Below, in pieces: positions 17,614-29,636 of a DNA stretch of 50,753 bases. The stretch is from positions 1-50,753 of the forward strand of contig JAGNEJ010000028.1 of assembly GCA_018003315.1 (NCBI GenBank), read 5' to 3'. The first letter of the stretch is position 1. The number at the start of each line of letters is the position of its first letter. Source of the DNA: Verrucomicrobiales bacterium (GTDB lineage: Bacteria > Verrucomicrobiota > Verrucomicrobiia > Verrucomicrobiales > V1-33). The notes beneath the pieces are model-generated. The model was not told where the DNA came from. It saw only the letters and a list, made by a program, of their open reading frames with translations, and ran no database searches. A program made the translations under genes and the position numbers.

Positions 17614-18432
17614 TCAGGGAAAGCGGGGGAATTTCGAAAAGTCCGGCGGGCGTTTTTCCACAAACGCCTGCTTCCCCTCCTTCGCCTCTTCGCTCATGTA
17701 GTAGAGCAGAGTGGCATTGCCCGCCAGGTCCAGCAGTCCCATCTGCCCATCGCAGTCGGCATTGAGCGCCGCTTTCAGGCAGCGCAGGGCCAGCGGACTG
17801 TGGCGCAGCATTTCCTGACACCACTGCACGGTTTCCTCCTCCAGCCGGTCCAGCGGCACCACGGCATTGACCAGCCCCATTTCCATGGCCTGCTGCGCGT
17901 CATACTGACGGCACAGATACCAGATTTCCCGCGCCTTTTTCTGCCCGACAATGCGCGCCAGGTAGCTGGACCCCAGGCCGCCGTCGAAACTTCCCACTTT
18001 CGGCCCGGTCTGTCCGAAGCGCGCATTTTCCGCCGCAATGGTCAGGTCGCAGACCACATGCAGCACATGGCCGCCGCCAATGGCATAGCCGGCGACCATC
18101 GCCACCACGGGTTTGGGCAGGCTGCGAATTTTTTTCTGCAGGTCGAGCACGTTGAGCCGCGGCACGCCATCCTGCCCGACGTAGCCAGCATGGCCGCGCA
18201 CCTTCTGGTCACCGCCGGAACAAAAGGCATCCGGCCCCTCGCCACACAGAATCACCACGCCCACGTCCGCATCCTCATGCGCCAGATCAAAGGCCCGCAG
18301 CAACTCCTGGACGGTCAGCGGGCGAAAAGCATTGCGCACCTCTGGACGATTGATCGTGATTTTCGCAATCCCCGTCCCCGAGGTTTGGTACTTGATGTCA
18401 GTAAAAGTCGCGGTGTCGTTCCATTGAATCAT
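17614..18432 (-). CDS. menB: 1,4-dihydroxy-2-naphthoyl-CoA synthase
   Basis: MenB closes the second ring of the naphthoquinone in menaquinone synthesis, converting O-succinylbenzoyl-CoA to DHNA-CoA. The 272-residue crotonase-fold protein carries the MenB-specific run [20 protein letters not shown], then [17 protein letters not shown], as well as [11 protein letters not shown] and [19 protein letters not shown] chose the ATG at 18432 ([10 protein letters not shown]), the usual N-terminus; the upstream extension is not protein-like. Other men genes are not in the window. Its presence indicates menaquinone as respiratory quinone, which matters for interpreting the chorismatase at 23.4 kb. Confidence 0.97.
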
Positions 18433-18584
18433 GCCCCTACCACGGCGCAATTCCCCCGCCCTGCAACCGGGAAATGGCCGAACGCAGGAAGGAACTCCCG
18501 CCTTGAATCTTGTGCAGCGGAACGTGAAGCTCCGCGGTCGTGATTTTTCCCCGCACCCATCGCCCACCGTTCGGCACCTGAGCC

Positions 18585-22934: not shown

Positions 22935-23390
22935 TCAGATGTCGAACGACAGTTCGGAGCGGTGCTCCCCGGCGATCACGTCGGCGATGGTGGTCTGCCC
23001 CAGAAATGCATTCACCTGACGCTGGAGGTCCGTGAACGTCCGTCCGATGCCGCACCCGCCAGGGGCCCCGCATTCGCAGGTGCCGTGACCGAATTTTTCC
23101 GGGTCCGGCCCGGTGCAGGAAATGGGCTCGAACGGCCCGTCGATGATGCGGATGACCTCGGCCAGCGGAATCTCGGCCGGTTTGCGGTTGAGTTGATAGC
23201 CGCCGCCCAGTCCGCGTTTGCTGCGGAGCAGATCGGCCCGGCGCAGTTCCAGTAAAATCTGCTCCAGAAACTTCGCCGGAATGTGCTCCGAACCGGAAAT
23301 TTCCTCGATCAGGAGGATCGCCCGCGCCGGGCGGCGGGCCAGTGCGCACAGGGCCCGCATCGCATACTCGGCTTTTTTTGAAATGCGCAT
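22935..23390 (-). CDS. Rrf2-family transcriptional regulator
   Basis: This is a 151-residue winged-helix repressor. The N-terminus MRISKKAEYAMRALCALAR and the wing region RSKRGLGGGYQLNR are family hallmarks (compare IscR, NsrR, RsrR). Four cysteines, C92, C105, C107 and C113, lie in the cluster region. Rrf2 proteins normally use three cysteines for an Fe-S cluster, and the CEC pair here is unusual. It starts 22 bases after the chorismatase stop and is probably co-transcribed with it. Redox, iron or nitric oxide control of the preceding genes or of the feo operon is possible; no target site was identified. Confidence 0.9.
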   Translation of the reverse strand: MRISKKAEYAMRALCALARRPARAILLIEEISGSEHIPAKFLEQILLELRRADLLRSKRGLGGGYQLNRKPAEIPLAEVIRIIDGPFEPISCTGPDPEKFGHGTCECGAPGGCGIGRTFTDLQRQVNAFLGQTTIADVIAGEHRSELSFDI

Positions 23391-23412: not shown

Positions 23413-24342
23413 TCAAACGCCCGTGAGTTCAATTTCCACATCCAGACAAGGCCGACAAATGTCGCACCGCAGGAAGGTGGCGGACTCCGCGAGCCGTTCC
23501 GCGCCATGCTCGCACAGGTGGGCGCAGACCTGCGGGAAGTCTGCGGCGTGGCGCAGATAAACCCGGGCCTTCCACGCCGGGGCATCCGGGCCGAATGGGT
23601 CCGGGATGCCCATGCGTTCGCTGATCAACCGCAGGTTGTTGCAGGTCACCGCGCACTGCAGGCGCAGGTCGTCGCTGCCAATGGTTTCGTGTCCCTTGAT
23701 GCTGGCCGTGCCGGAGATGAATGCCTGCGGCCCACCCGCACGCTGGCGCAGGGTGCCGCGCGAAAAGCTGGGACTCTTCGGCCCATACCGTTCCGGATAG
23801 GTCCAGGCGGGCGTTTGCTCGGGATTTTCCAGGCAGATTGCCGGGTCTCGACCTGCGGCAAACAAAGTGACCAGCGAGGAGTCCGCCATTCCGACTGCCG
23901 AAGCTGCGGGGAGCTTCCCCTGCAGATCGCTGCCAAAGTGCTCCTGGAACGCCCGCCAGCGTCCGACGTTGAAGCGGTGGTAATTTTCCAGCCCGCCCTC
24001 GACGTGGTTGATCTGCGGGACGTAATTCCAGATGCGGTAAAGCGTGTGCCCGCCCAAGGAATCCAACAGCCGTGAATACATGCGCCGGGTGACGTCCTCC
24101 AGCGTCGTGACCGAGCACGGTTCGACGAGCACACCAGCCACGCCATCCGGCCCGCGCAACAGAAACTGGCTGGGCTCCGGCATTTCCACCGCGGCACCCT
24201 GCACTGCCAGCCATTCTTCAGCCGGTCCGGCTAGGTGCGGGAGATTCAAGTCCACTGTCAACCCTTCAGGACCGTGCGACACGCGGGTGTCGGGCCTTCC
24301 GAAACGGATGTGCAGGGTTTGCGTGGCTTGTGCCAGGGTCAT
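23413..24342 (-). CDS. Chorismatase-family enzyme (FkbO/XanB2-like)
   Basis: The 309 residues match the chorismatase family of the RidA/YjgF-like fold. Members hydrolyse or rearrange chorismate to dihydroxy-dihydrobenzoate or to 3- or 4-hydroxybenzoate. Family segments are WNYVPQIN (105-112), GGLENYHRFNVGR, PAASAVGM, LFAAGRDPAICLENPEQTPA, SFSRGTL and FISGTASIKGHE (208-219), whose glutamate is the expected catalytic residue. The C-terminus ends with ICRPCLDVEIELTG, again typical. XanB2-type members supply 3-hydroxybenzoate for xanthomonadin-like aryl polyenes. The gene is 85 bases downstream of a halogenase-like flavoenzyme and 22 bases upstream of an Rrf2 gene. The sub-type, and so the product, cannot be decided from the sequence alone. 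Confidence 0.85.
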   Translation of the reverse strand: MTLAQATQTLHIRFGRPDTRVSHGPEGLTVDLNLPHLAGPAEEWLAVQGAAVEMPEPSQFLLRGPDGVAGVLVEPCSVTTLEDVTRRMYSRLLDSLGGHTLYRIWNYVPQINHVEGGLENYHRFNVGRWRAFQEHFGSDLQGKLPAASAVGMADSSLVTLFAAGRDPAICLENPEQTPAWTYPERYGPKSPSFSRGTLRQRAGGPQAFISGTASIKGHETIGSDDLRLQCAVTCNNLRLISERMGIPDPFGPDAPAWKARVYLRHAADFPQVCAHLCEHGAERLAESATFLRCDICRPCLDVEIELTGV

Positions 24343-24427
24343 GCGGAGAGTAGTTCGATTAAGCGGGATTTTCCCCGCCTGTCAATGCGCATGGCATTCG
24401 ATTTCCGTCCGCCAAAAAATTCACCGC

Positions 24428-25987
24428 TCATTGCAGCGGACTGACAGGTGGCTCCGTGACCGCCGCCGCGTTGGCACCCGTGGTCTGGTGCGAGGTTTTC
24501 GGAGCGGGCAAAAAAAGCCCCTGCGCCTCCGCCTTCAACCATTGCCAAACGCCCTGGCGCAGCACCCGGAGCATCTTCCAGTCGGGGGAAAAACCCTGCC
24601 GCAACAGCAGACGGCGGCCCAGGTTGTTTTTGCCATACACGCCTGCCGCCCAGCGTTTTTTGGCCAGGTGCACCAGCCTGCGGTTGTAAAACGCCATGAA
24701 TCCGGCAAAGGCAGCCCCCCATTTTCCATGATAGGGCAAATAGAGCCATTCGGGTTTGCCCACGTCATACACCAGCCGGGCCGGACCGATGAAATAGGTG
24801 CTGATGTCCAGCAGGAAGGCCGCCCACATCAGATCCATGTCGCCAAGGTAGTGGTATTTGTCTTGATAGAGGGCGCGATACCAGCGGAAGTAACTGGTGG
24901 CGAAGCGTCGGTTGAAATCGGCAACCTGCTGCCGGGTGCACCGGCCCCGGTGGTCGTCGGCAATGATTTCCACGGCCACCATGATTCCGTGGGAGCAGTA
25001 ATCCAGCCCCTGGCTGTAGAGCGGATCCATGAACCCTGCCGCGTCACCGCAGATGATCCATCCGTCGCCGGCCACTTCCGTGGAATAGTAGGGCAGGTGG
25101 GAATACATCCGGGTGTCCTGCGGAATCGGGGTCGCCTCATGAAACAATTCCCGTCCCACCGGATGCCCAAGCAGGTGGCTGGTGAGTCTCGCAGTCAGAC
25201 TTGGGCCGGACGGCAGTTCAAAGAGCCGCGGGTCCCAGGTGATGCCTGCGCTGACATCGCCATCCTTCAGCGGGATGATCCAGCACCACCAGCCTCGACC
25301 CATCAGGTGGTTGGTGGCCACATGCCGCGGACAGGGCAGCGCCGCAGCATACGCGGGGAAACGTCTCGCAAGCGATTCGCTGTCCAGGTTTTTCACCCCC
25401 TGATAACGCACCCAAATGGAATTGGTCGGATGCTCGTCCAGTTTGCGCCAGGTGTTGCGCTGGCGGGCCAGCAGTGCCGCTTTTCCGCTGGCATCGAGCA
25501 CCCAATTTGCCCGCACCTGGCGCGTCTCCTCCCCGCAGCGCACTTCTAGCAGATTGTTGCCGCGTCCGCCCAGTTTCAGGGAGCGGACCGTGGCTGGCTG
25601 CCACAGCACGCATCCTGCCGCTACGGCCTGTTCCAGAATGTGAGGGTCCAGCTTGGCGCGGTCGAGTTGAAATGTCGGCAGGCGGCTCTGGTAATACGGT
25701 CCCACTTCGCCGCACCGCTCGAAACATTCGTTTTCCGGCTCCGTAAACCAGAGCCGCAGTCCGTGCTTAACCAGATGGTTCTGCGAGAGGTAATCGTAAA
25801 GCCGCAGTTCCCGCGTCAGGAAACATCCCGCCACCTCAGAAGTGGACTCGCCCACTTTGCGGTCCGGTTCGGCGGAGCGTTCCACCACCAGCACCCGCAG
25901 TTCCGGATGCGCCCGCTTCAACAAAAGCCCGGCGGAAGCCCCCGTAAACGCCCCGCCCACAATCACGACATCAACTTCGGTCATCAT
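24428..25987 (-). CDS. FAD-dependent oxidoreductase related to flavin-dependent halogenases
   Basis: The 519-residue protein has an N-terminal FAD site (VVIVGGAFTGASAGLLLKRA, a degenerate GxGxxG), then KVGEST, a second flavin motif GDAAGFMDPLYSQGLDY (314-330), and WCWIIP at 234-239. The last fits the WxWxIP motif of flavin-dependent halogenases, which is thought to suppress monooxygenation. Length also fits. Related proteins accompany chorismatases in xanthomonadin/aryl-polyene loci. Halogenation is not certain, because many family members in pigment clusters have unproved activity. The start at 25987 lies 33 bases after the sugar permease stop; the chorismatase follows. Confidence 0.85.
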   Translation of the reverse strand: MMTEVDVVIVGGAFTGASAGLLLKRAHPELRVLVVERSAEPDRKVGESTSEVAGCFLTRELRLYDYLSQNHLVKHGLRLWFTEPENECFERCGEVGPYYQSRLPTFQLDRAKLDPHILEQAVAAGCVLWQPATVRSLKLGGRGNNLLEVRCGEETRQVRANWVLDASGKAALLARQRNTWRKLDEHPTNSIWVRYQGVKNLDSESLARRFPAYAAALPCPRHVATNHLMGRGWWCWIIPLKDGDVSAGITWDPRLFELPSGPSLTARLTSHLLGHPVGRELFHEATPIPQDTRMYSHLPYYSTEVAGDGWIICGDAAGFMDPLYSQGLDYCSHGIMVAVEIIADDHRGRCTRQQVADFNRRFATSYFRWYRALYQDKYHYLGDMDLMWAAFLLDISTYFIGPARLVYDVGKPEWLYLPYHGKWGAAFAGFMAFYNRRLVHLAKKRWAAGVYGKNNLGRRLLLRQGFSPDWKMLRVLRQGVWQWLKAEAQGLFLPAPKTSHQTTGANAAAVTEPPVSPLQ

Positions 25988-26020: not shown

Positions 26021-27052
26021 CTACACCGCCCGCTCCCTGGCGCGTCGTCGGGCGGCATTGCGCCGCAGCAGTTCGTCCACGATGACTCCGAGCAAAATGA
26101 TGGCACCAACCACGAAGTATTTCCATTCGTCCTTTACTCCCAGCGTCAGCACCGCCTTTTGCGCGGTCTGCACCAGGGCCGCTCCCAGCACCACGCCTGC
26201 CATCGAGCATTCACCGCCGCGCAGGCTGGTCCCGCCCAGCACTGCGCCGGCAATGGCAAACAATTCATAGCCATTGCCGAAATTGGATGCCAGCACGCTG
26301 TTGATCTTCAGGGCAAACATGAACCCGCCGAACGCTGCGATCATGCCACAGAGCACATAGGCCACGATTTTGACCCGGTCAGTGCGAATGCCGGAAAATG
26401 TGGCGGCGCTTTCATTTCTGCCCAGCGCCAGCAGGTGCCGTCCGAACGGGGTGCGGTGCAGCAGCACGGACACGACTGCCGCCAGCAGCAGCAAAATCCA
26501 CAGCGGCATGGGCACGCCCAGCCAGGTGCCGTTGGCCAGGAATTTCAGATCGGTGAACCCGGTGCCGAATCCCCAGGAGTCATCGCGCGCCACCCAGCGG
26601 GCGACACTGCGGTAGAGAAACATGCCGCAGAGCGTGACCAGAAACGGCTGCAGCGAGAGTTTGGTGATCAGCAGTCCGTGAAACAACCCGATGAGCCCAC
26701 CCAGCGCCACCACCAGCAGAATCGCGCTGCCTACCGGCATCGGCTCGGCCAAAAGCACGTAGTCGCCGACTTCCAGTTTCAGTCCAGCCACCACTGCCTT
26801 GGGCACAATGACCGCGGACAGCGCAATGATCGATCCGGTGGCAAGATCAATGCCCCCGGTGGCCATGACCACCGCGGCCCCTACGGCGATGATCCCGTAG
26901 AGTCCGGCATACTGCGCATTTTCCAGCAGCGAGGCGCTGCTCCAGAACGCGGGATTCGCAGCCCCAGTTCCCAGGAAAATGAGCAGCAGCAGCGTGGCGA
27001 TGCCGAGCGTTTTCTGATGCTGGCGCCAAACGGATTGGAAGAAGCTGGACAT
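26021..27052 (-). CDS. RbsC-type sugar ABC transporter permease
   Basis: This 343-residue inner-membrane permease is of the ribose/xylose/galactose class. It has about eight to ten helices and the signature GIIAVGAAVVMATGGIDLATG followed by SIIALSAVI, plus a late AGAVLGGTSLRGGECSMAGV. Unlike the permease at 15.4 kb it has no large insertion after the first helix. It starts 15 bases after the ATPase stop and is the third gene of a complete binding-protein/ATPase/permease operon. The tail is very basic (RRNAARRRARERAV). Confidence 0.95.
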   Translation of the reverse strand: MSSFFQSVWRQHQKTLGIATLLLLIFLGTGAANPAFWSSASLLENAQYAGLYGIIAVGAAVVMATGGIDLATGSIIALSAVIVPKAVVAGLKLEVGDYVLLAEPMPVGSAILLVVALGGLIGLFHGLLITKLSLQPFLVTLCGMFLYRSVARWVARDDSWGFGTGFTDLKFLANGTWLGVPMPLWILLLLAAVVSVLLHRTPFGRHLLALGRNESAATFSGIRTDRVKIVAYVLCGMIAAFGGFMFALKINSVLASNFGNGYELFAIAGAVLGGTSLRGGECSMAGVVLGAALVQTAQKAVLTLGVKDEWKYFVVGAIILLGVIVDELLRRNAARRRARERAV

Positions 27053-27067
27053 GTCAGGGAGAAATGC

Positions 27068-28567
27068 TCAGGCCGCCTGCGCAGAGCCGGTAGCCAGGCG
27101 CGTGATCGCTTCCTCGCTCATCGCGGTGCGGTCCAGTTCACCCGCCAGCCGGCCTTCGTGGAACACCAGCACCCGGTCGGCCACGCGCAGGAGTTCCTCC
27201 AGCTCACTGGAAATGAACAGCACCGAGGCTCCGTCCACCGCCAGCCTTTCCACCACGGCATAAATTTCGCTCTTGGCGCCGATGTCCACTCCGCGGGTGG
27301 GTTCGTCGAGCAGAAACACCCGCGGATTGAGCACCAGCCATTTGGCGATCGCCACCTTCTGCTGGTTGCCGCCGGAAAGCTGGCCGACTTCCTTGCGCAC
27401 ATCGGTGGTGCGTATCCGCAGCCGTTCGCGCATCGCCTCGGCATCGCGGGTGATCGCCGCTTCCTTCACAAACCCTCCAGCCGCATAGAGCCGGGACATT
27501 CCCGGAAGGGCGATGTTTTCGGCGATGGCCAGATCCAGAAAAACGCCCTGCGCCTTGCGGTCTTCCGGCACAAAGGCCAGGCCGGCGGAGATGGCGTCGC
27601 ACGGCGAGGTGATCTTCACTTCCGCTCCGTTCACCAGCACCCGGCCCGCCACGGCGCGGTCGATTCCAAACAGCGCCCGGGCGATTTCCGTGCGGCCCGC
27701 ACCCACCAGGCCGGCCACGCCCACCACTTCTCCCTGGCGCAGGGAGAAGCTTACCGGTTCGTTGGGAAAACGCGCAGTGCGCAGGCCCTCCACGGAGAAA
27801 TTCACCTCTCCGGCAGGCGATGCCGTTTTGTCAGGGATCTGCAAGCCGCGCCCCACCATCAGGCTGACGATTTTTTCCCGAGCAATGTCCGCGCCGACGA
27901 GTTCCCCGCTGTTTTTGCCGTCGCGCAGCACGATGACCCGGTCGGCCATTTCCATGACTTCAGCCATGCGGTGAGAAATGAAGACGACGCACAATCCCCT
28001 GTCGCGAAGCTGACGCACCAGGGCAAACAGTTTCCCGGTTTCCCGCTGCGACAGGGAGCTGGTAGGCTCGTCCATGATGAGCAGCCGGGCATCCTGCGAA
28101 AGCGCCTTGGCAATTTCCACCATCTGCTGGTGGCCGATGGACAGGTCGGACACCGGCGTTTCCGGGCCAAATCCCACTCCCAGATCATCGAGGATCATTT
28201 TCGTCCGCCGGTTCATTTCCGACTGCCGCAAAAACCCAAACCGCCCCGGCTCCCGACCCAGAAAAACATTCGCGGCTACGCTCAGGTTTTCCGCGAGATT
28301 CAGTTCCTGATGGATGAAGGCAATGCCCAGTGCCGTTGCCGCCCGGACATCGCTGACCGTCACTTCCTTTCCATCCGCCAGCACCGCGCCTTCATCCGGC
28401 GGATGGACGCCGGCCAGGCATTTCATCAGCGTGCTTTTGCCCGCCCCGTTCTCCCCCATGACCGCCACCACTTCACCGGGAAAAAATTGCGCACTGACAT
28501 TGTTCAGGGCGTGGACGCCGAGGAAGCGTTTGTGAATGCCGCGGGCTTCGAGCAGGGGCGTGGCCAT
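27068..28567 (-). CDS. RbsA/MglA-type sugar ABC transporter ATPase (two domains)
   Basis: The 499-residue ATPase has two fused nucleotide-binding domains. The first has Walker A GENGAGKST (38-46), signature LSIGHQQMVEIAKAL and Walker B LLIMDEPTSSL. The second has the usual degenerate P-loop GLVGAGRTEIARA, signature LSGGNQQKVAIAKWL and Walker B VFLLDEPTRGVDIGAKS. It powers uptake with the downstream permease and is the only such ATPase in the window, so it might also serve the ATPase-less system at 15.4-17.6 kb. I chose the ATG at 28567 (MATPLLEARGIHKRF), the family N-terminus; the longer frame upstream is spurious. Confidence 0.96.
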   Translation of the reverse strand: MATPLLEARGIHKRFLGVHALNNVSAQFFPGEVVAVMGENGAGKSTLMKCLAGVHPPDEGAVLADGKEVTVSDVRAATALGIAFIHQELNLAENLSVAANVFLGREPGRFGFLRQSEMNRRTKMILDDLGVGFGPETPVSDLSIGHQQMVEIAKALSQDARLLIMDEPTSSLSQRETGKLFALVRQLRDRGLCVVFISHRMAEVMEMADRVIVLRDGKNSGELVGADIAREKIVSLMVGRGLQIPDKTASPAGEVNFSVEGLRTARFPNEPVSFSLRQGEVVGVAGLVGAGRTEIARALFGIDRAVAGRVLVNGAEVKITSPCDAISAGLAFVPEDRKAQGVFLDLAIAENIALPGMSRLYAAGGFVKEAAITRDAEAMRERLRIRTTDVRKEVGQLSGGNQQKVAIAKWLVLNPRVFLLDEPTRGVDIGAKSEIYAVVERLAVDGASVLFISSELEELLRVADRVLVFHEGRLAGELDRTAMSEEAITRLATGSAQAA

Positions 28568-28601
28568 GGGCAGGTGCGCTGGTTCTCCGCCGCGTCTGCG
28601 C

Positions 28602-29636
28602 TCAGGACTCTCCTTCCTTGCGCAGAGCCGCCAGCTTGGTGCGGTATTCCTGCAGTCCTTCCTTGCGGATGATGAGCGCCGGCACTGGAAATGCCTTGTC
28701 TGCCGGAATCTCCAGCTTTTTGCCATCGGCCAACTCCTTCAGATACTTCATCGACTGATAGCCGAACTCAAACGGCTGCTGGACAATCGTTCCTTCGCAG
28801 GTGCCGGCTTCAATCGCATTGAGCGTGTCCTCCTCCTCGTCGAATCCAAAGACTTTCACCTGTCCCAGTTTTCCTGCGCTCTTCAGGCCGTTGAGACACT
28901 GCGGCGTATTGTAGGACCACAGGCCGCCCACCGCCTTCAACTGGTCGCCAAAGCGCCGCACCGCCGCCTCCACATTGGACTGAGCCGCCGCCCGGTCCGT
29001 GGTGTCAGTCATCGTGTCCAGCAGCGTGTATTTGCCCAGCGTCACCGGCTGGCCGTTGGGTGCGTCCTGCACCGCCCCGTCGCTCAGCTCCTGGATGATC
29101 CCCTGGCGGCGGTCTTTGGCATTCTGCGCATCCAGACTGCCCACGAACAGCACCAATCCGCCCCCGTCCGGAAGTTTTTCCTTCACCAGTTTCGCCATCA
29201 GCTTCCCCGCTTCCAGGTTGCTCGTCCCCACGTAAAACAGCCGGTTGCTCGCCGGGGCATCGCTGTCGTGGCAGATCAGCGGCATCGCCGCCGCCACCTT
29301 GTTCAAAATCTCCGTCTGGTTTTTCGGATCGCATGGGCTGATGGCCACACCCTTGTAGGTAGCCGCATTCTGCAGAATGTTTTCCAGAATGCGGTTCTGC
29401 TCCTCCACCGAACCGGTCGGCGGGGTGATCAGTTCTCCCGACAGCCCGAAATCCTTCTCCGCCTTCTTGATTCCCGCTTTCGCATAACTCCAGAACGGAC
29501 TGGCGTTGTTGATGACAAATGCAAACTTCGGCCCGGCAGGCTGCGCCGCGGACCCGGCTTTCTTTTTGCAACCAGTCAGCAGCAGCACCGCACAGCCTGC
29601 GGCAAATGAAGTGGCAAGAAAATGGGATCGCGTCAT
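28602..29636 (-). CDS. Sugar-binding lipoprotein of the RbsB type
   Basis: The 344-residue receptor has a lipobox ending at C23 (LLTGC) and a mature start FAFVINNASPFWSYAKAGIK, typical of RbsB-class receptors. KGVAISPCDPKNQTEILNKV and LICHDSDAPASNRLFYVGTS follow. The last segment resembles binding proteins for ribose-like or xylose-like sugars, but substrate cannot be read with confidence. It is the first gene of the transporter operon, 34 bases upstream of the ATPase. Its promoter should lie in the 351-base gap before tRNA-Glu. Confidence 0.93.
   Translation of the reverse strand: MTRSHFLATSFAAGCAVLLLTGCKKKAGSAAQPAGPKFAFVINNASPFWSYAKAGIKKAEKDFGLSGELITPPTGSVEEQNRILENILQNAATYKGVAISPCDPKNQTEILNKVAAAMPLICHDSDAPASNRLFYVGTSNLEAGKLMAKLVKEKLPDGGGLVLFVGSLDAQNAKDRRQGIIQELSDGAVQDAPNGQPVTLGKYTLLDTMTDTTDRAAAQSNVEAAVRRFGDQLKAVGGLWSYNTPQCLNGLKSAGKLGQVKVFGFDEEEDTLNAIEAGTCEGTIVQQPFEFGYQSMKYLKELADGKKLEIPADKAFPVPALIIRKEGLQEYRTKLAALRKEGES

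Follow-up and report, generated by a model that had tools for sequence, protein, structure and literature searches.

The adjacent genes of a chorismatase and a halogenase-like flavoenzyme in a draft genome of the order Verrucomicrobiales form, in our reading, the starter-unit module of an aryl-polyene pigment pathway of the xanthomonadin/arcuflavin type, with the remaining pathway genes dispersed across the genome. We put the probability of this reading at about 0.85, and that the pair belongs to an aryl-polyene pathway at all is very probable indeed. The reading is built on the presence of the genes, their motifs, their co-occurrence with the pathway and their clustering in related genomes, all of which were directly observed. 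The estimates for pathway membership, for 3-hydroxybenzoate (3-HBA) as product and for halogenation are judgements and were not computed. Protective pigments of the outer membrane, aryl polyenes are encoded by clusters that rank among the most widespread biosynthetic clusters of bacteria.

Gene organization of the window

The window, i.e. the whole stretch of 50,753 nucleotides that was analysed, is contig C61 of the focal genome, a draft of 5.09 Mb in 155 contigs with a contamination of 2.56%. Three genes on the minus strand are transcribed in the order flavoenzyme, chorismatase and Rrf2 regulator. The flavin-dependent-halogenase-like flavoenzyme (24428-25987, minus strand, 519 aa) scored 51.5 bits with Pfam Trp_halogenase (cut-off 21), the FkbO/Hyg5/XanB2-family chorismatase (23413-24342, minus strand, 309 aa) 69.6 bits with Pfam FkbO_Hyg5-like_N (cut-off 27) and the Rrf2-family transcriptional regulator (22935-23390, minus strand, 151 aa) 118.8 bits with Pfam Rrf2 (cut-off 30). 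An earlier note on this DNA had described the two enzyme genes as adjacent on one strand, with the motifs FISGTASIKGHE in the chorismatase and WCWIIP in the flavoenzyme, and with an Rrf2-type regulator gene 22 bases further on. The open reading frames were confirmed with a gap of 85 bases between the two enzymes, both motifs are present in the translations, and 22 bases indeed lie between the chorismatase stop (23413) and the ATG of the Rrf2 gene (23390), whose product is above the Pfam cut-off.

MenB (17614-18567, minus strand) was assigned by reading the translation only. A sugar-type ABC transporter consisting of binding protein, ATPase and permease (26021-29636, minus strand) shares the strand of the flavoenzyme and ends 33 bp ahead of it, and co-transcription is possible; in relatives the transporter was not seen beside the pair, and it was set aside as a member of the unit. 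A scan for promoters and terminators revealed no clear signal exceeding shuffles. No polyketide genes were found near the pair within its 50-kb contig, and the absence of a ketosynthase from the window, as had been claimed, agrees with the positions of the five ketosynthase matches of the genome on contigs C37, C2, C55, C76 and C21.

Family and predicted product of the chorismatase

Membership of the chorismatase in the FkbO/Hyg5/XanB2 family is supported by the family domain Pfam PF21168, scored above its curated cut-off (69.6 against 27 bits), and by the closest solved structures, Hyg5 (5ag3) and FkbO (4bps). The Hyg5 structure was matched at 2.6e-30 using the single chorismatase sequence as query and at 3.9e-85 using the chorismatase family profile, which itself included Hyg5 and FkbO segments. 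With the NCBIfam model TIGR04444 of the FkbO/Hyg5 subfamily the chorismatase scored 171 bits, under the cut-off of 325, and by its sequence it is placed as a relative outside this named subfamily model. A scan of genome contigs with the chorismatase gave matches from Verrucomicrobiota, Cyanobacteria and Acidobacteria; three cyanobacterial chorismatases (L156, L166 and L168, 36-40% identity to the query) adjoin weakly AMP-ligase-like sequences.

Alignment revealed that residues G211, C296 and E303 of the chorismatase correspond to G240, C327 and the catalytic E334 of Hyg5, while FkbO has Ala at both sites corresponding to Gly211 and Cys296. The diagnostic residues of CH-II enzymes (Hyg5 type, with 3-HBA as sole product) are Gly, Gly and Cys at positions 164, 231 and 318 of nat-Hyg5 (PMC7170507), together with the catalytic Glu. 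The CH-II Gly at Hyg5 G173 is Ala149 in the chorismatase and in nearly all verrucomicrobial relatives, and the product type is uncertain because of this position. From the Hyg5-like Gly, Cys and Glu, 3-HBA is predicted as a probable product, and likely the main one, while a mixture of 3- and 4-HBA, as made by XanB2-type (CH-III) enzymes, would be possible given Ala149. The chorismatase is accounted for by its link to polyene genes, and ubiquinone supply was set aside as the reason for its presence.

A second, longer chorismatase-like protein of about 440 aa is encoded on contig C29 of the focal genome (G000; L117:8363-9691). It has an additional N-terminal part and a Rid-type C-terminal domain and scored 164 bits with TIGR04444; such longer proteins are widespread in the order, frequently without the short chorismatase.

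Halogenase features of the flavoenzyme

The flavoenzyme carries K74 in the motif KHGLRLW, WCWIIP at W234-P239 and FMDPLYSQG at 319 (FxDPxxSxG). In an alignment of 36 members K74, W234, W236, I238, P239, D321, P322, S325 and G327 were invariant, and the family conserves the lysine motif as KxG[LM]R[FLM]W together with WxWxIP and FxDPxxSxG. The catalytic lysine of flavin-dependent halogenases (PrnA K79, BrvH K83), which the earlier note had proposed to look for, is thus in place as K74 and invariant in the 36 homologues; its local motif KHGLR is the counterpart of K83-LGIR in the brominase BrvH, as read from a published mutagenesis primer. The FAD-binding motif GxGxxG was not found in the flavoenzyme, which has GGAFTG (GGAxxG), with A13 conserved in at least 90% of the family. 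The site after DPL is Tyr324, where Trp halogenases have their catalytic Glu (PrnA E346); the missing Glu, like the altered FAD motif a point against the proposed role, is not decisive, because CmlS, PltA, CndH and CtcP have Phe at this site in printed alignments.

Comparison of the flavoenzyme family profile with solved structures gave 127 bits for CmlS, 113 for CndH, 112 for PltA and 111 for CtcP, the halogenases of the CmlS/CndH/PltA/PltM type spanning 76-127 bits, while the geranylgeranyl reductase 3oz2 reached 36 bits, Trp halogenases at most 33 bits and the peptidyl tryptophan dihydroxylase chain 7ctq 30 bits. Fold ranking of an AlphaFold2 model (pLDDT 91) placed Bmp2 (Z 33.2) and PltM (32.8) best, with 3nix at 32.0 and 3oz2 at 25.4. 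Clustering with geranylgeranyl reductases had been named as one result that would refute the proposal of the earlier note; both profile (36 against 127 bits) and fold (Z 25.4 against 33.2) group the flavoenzyme with the halogenases and rule out a geranylgeranyl reductase.

That the flavoenzyme truly halogenates is slightly favoured over even odds. Within the same pathway it could act as a non-halogenase, hydroxylating or oxidising the aromatic head group or the polyene in the manner of QhpG-type monooxygenases of the same superfamily, a serious contender that we rate somewhat below an even chance. Among NCBIfam models the monooxygenase QhpG scores best (87 bits, well under the cut-off of 240), slightly over CmlS (82 bits), the FAD motif is altered at A13, the fold score of the unassigned flavoprotein 3nix is close to those of the halogenases, and a core step is suggested because the flavoenzyme accompanies the pathway almost universally. 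Arcuflavin, the pigment of a strain bearing the arcA-arcB halogenase-chorismatase pair, is C41H52O4 and halogen-free (PMC3949708), so halogenation may not be the role of the flavoenzyme. Against a non-halogenase stand the preference of the profile for CmlS, CndH, PltA and CtcP over 7ctq and the conservation of the K74 motif, WxWxIP and FxDPxxSxG alike.

The gene pair in related genomes

The pair is adjacent and in the same order in genomes G028 (same genus) and G036 (same family), and a PagL-like gene follows it. In both it is flanked by genes for an acyltransferase, a polysaccharide deacetylase, a methyltransferase, a family-2 glycosyltransferase, a FabA/FabZ-type dehydratase, an AMP-ligase, a ketosynthase (KS) and a chain-length factor (CLF). 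The G036 locus additionally holds a second halogenase-like flavoprotein, an LPG_synthase_TM protein and an acyl carrier protein (ACP), and no match to an ACP was found on the G028 contig. This gene set is largely that of the flexirubin, xanthomonadin/arcuflavin and E. coli aryl-polyene clusters. In aryl-polyene loci the second halogenase-like flavoprotein (L119:6710-7966, Trp_halogenase 101.6 bits) adjoins the LPG_synthase_TM protein and the ACP.

Among 28 genomes having both enzymes, the two genes lie at most 210 bp apart on one strand in 7 and 2.6-5.3 kb apart in 4 more. Conservation of the pair in relatives, on which the earlier note had made its proposal depend, was therefore found. A PagL-like gene (lipid A 3-O-deacylase family) follows the chorismatase in four relatives (L098:8968-9558, L083, L093 and L109), while the window has none at this place, which is occupied by the Rrf2 gene. 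No Rrf2 homologue adjoins the pair in the loci of relatives and Rrf2 was rejected as a conserved partner; the sole other Rrf2 match, in L201, is separated from a chorismatase by about 6.5 kb. The regulator belongs only possibly to the unit of the pair. Plasmid-borne relatives, a Caballeronia chorismatase and a Janthinobacterium flavoprotein, sit in other contexts.

Dispersal of the pathway genes in the focal genome

A search of the focal genome for ketosynthase, carrier and AMP-ligase genes, as had been suggested, revealed homologues on contigs C55, C28 and C101, respectively. The first is a fused KS-CLF in one ORF of 779 aa (L016:9875-12214), its KS and CLF parts showing 58% and 43% identity to the G036 proteins; the ACP (71% identity) and the AMP-ligase (46%) are accompanied by homologues of the dehydratase on C84 (58%), the family-2 glycosyltransferase on C120 (53%) and the deacetylase on C16 (45%). 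The focal genome contains chorismatase, AMP-ligase, ACP, KS, CLF and dehydratase, i.e. the gene set by which an aryl-polyene pathway was recognised. Long open frames suggest a KS-CLF fusion in several other genomes of the order as well.

The genes are clustered in G028 and G036, whereas in the focal genome physical clustering was not found and the genes are spread over at least seven contigs. This dispersal is almost certainly no artefact of the draft. An assembly or binning error that broke up a single true cluster might be suspected from the 155 contigs and the 2.56% contamination, and we consider it highly improbable: each piece is flanked within its own contig by unrelated genes, e.g. uvrC (assigned by reading) adjoining the KS-CLF, the window extends 23-25 kb on either side of the pair, and distances of 0.26, 0.55, 0.93 and 3.3 Mb separate the flavoenzyme from the CLF in four genomes of the order that each consist of a single contig. 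Flavoenzyme and CLF were within 20 kb of each other in at least 19 of 96 genomes, a lower bound in view of the many fragmented drafts among the other 77.

Co-occurrence across the order

Analysis of 289 genomes of the order indicated that the aryl-polyene CLF is present in 97 of the 103 genomes with the flavoenzyme and in 15 of the 186 without it. It was likewise present in 37 of the 42 genomes with the chorismatase, and the five lacking it are mostly incomplete or fragmented. At the family level chorismatase and aryl-polyene KS are found together in five genomes and are both missing from seven, while a single one (G059, 68% complete) has the chorismatase without the KS. The genomes are not independent and Fisher values overstate the strength of these associations; the pattern is still clear. 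The flavoenzyme and the chorismatase are not an obligate unit: the chorismatase occurs in 14 genomes that lack the flavoenzyme, and the flavoenzyme in 75 that lack the short chorismatase. Other starters probably exist in the latter, since they are so many.

These data bear on the suggestion of the earlier note that the two enzymes alone make up a small undescribed pathway. Such a self-contained route would start at chorismate and end in a free hydroxybenzoate, halogenated or oxidised, that serves as diffusible signal or antimicrobial under the control of Rrf2 and independently of polyketide synthesis. It would account for the 50-kb contig devoid of polyketide genes around the pair and for the Rrf2 gene 22 bp past the chorismatase, and free 3-HBA itself is a diffusible factor in Xanthomonas according to a statement quoted in PMC3949708. 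What makes it very unlikely is the close association of both enzymes with the aryl-polyene CLF, their place among clustered aryl-polyene genes in G028 and G036, the absence of Rrf2 from beside the pair in relatives, and the KS-CLF, ACP, AMP-ligase, dehydratase, glycosyltransferase and deacetylase of the genome itself. The suggestion of a pathway of two enzymes was thus not upheld.

Proposed pathway and its implications

In the starter-module reading each catalytic step, the formation of a pigment at all and halogenation are predictions. The chorismatase would convert chorismate to 3-HBA, perhaps also 4-hydroxybenzoate, with release of pyruvate; the AMP-ligase (C101) would activate the hydroxybenzoate and the ACP (C28) would carry the activated unit. 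The fused KS-CLF (C55) would then extend the starter and the FabA/FabZ-like dehydratase (C84) would introduce the double bonds. The flavoenzyme would modify the phenolic head group; its most likely role is that of a halogenase dependent on FADH2, with the ring as substrate either free or bound to the carrier.

This is a known kind of pathway in a new setting, the Verrucomicrobiota, and its unusual point is the dispersed layout, which recurs in genomes of the order that consist of a single contig. Should scattering be the rule in Verrucomicrobiales, programs that look for clusters would under-count the pathway, and co-occurrence would be the better guide. Most of the 112 genomes that have the CLF also encode the halogenase-like flavoenzyme, and this tight link to the pathway makes the role of the enzyme directly testable. 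A broader view, which we hold to be doubtful, is that aryl polyenes with a modified and possibly halogenated head group are common products of Verrucomicrobiales, made from genes dispersed over the chromosome, sometimes with a fused KS-CLF; the flavoenzyme would then catalyse a core step found almost universally in the pathway, by a chemistry so far undescribed for these pigments, and these pathways would mostly be missed by cluster-based mining.

Comparison with known systems

The chorismatase shows a clear sequence match to the CH-II enzyme Hyg5 (PDB 5ag3), with G240, C327 and E334 conserved; it differs in the third diagnostic Gly (G173, here Ala149) and in scoring under the NCBIfam cut-off, and its proposed starter would serve a type II system, in contrast to the type I PKS supplied by Hyg5. 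An aryl-polyene cluster was predicted by antiSMASH in a yellow isolate of the Verrucomicrobiota (PMC9865893). In the yellow-pigment cluster of Lysobacter enzymogenes the chorismatase homologue ORF5 is required for normal pigment and can be replaced by fed 3-HBA (PMC3691225). That cluster, as drawn, starts with a BadM/Rrf2-family regulator (ORF1; PMC3691225), and the pair in the window precedes an Rrf2 gene; unlike the system proposed here, it is a single cluster without halogenase. The xanthomonadin cluster of Xanthomonas contains xanB2 and a halogenase, and its product is brominated (PMC3691225, PMC3949708); the likeness lies in the chorismatase providing 3-HBA as ring precursor and in the halogenase of the Xanthomonas cluster.

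In Azoarcus sp. BH72 the halogenase gene arcA adjoins arcB, coding for a XanB2-type chorismatase that yields 3- and 4-HBA, and pigment formation requires both of the two arc loci, which are unlinked (PMC3949708). Common to both systems are a halogenase-type flavoenzyme adjoining a chorismatase, unlinked loci, and an acyltransferase, a glycosyltransferase, a deacetylase, an AMP-ligase, an ACP and a dehydratase; the outer-membrane protein gene arcC stands where verrucomicrobial relatives have the gene of a PagL-like outer-membrane enzyme. The Azoarcus genes occupy two loci in a member of the Proteobacteria, while those described here are found in the Verrucomicrobiota at no fewer than seven places, with KS and CLF fused.
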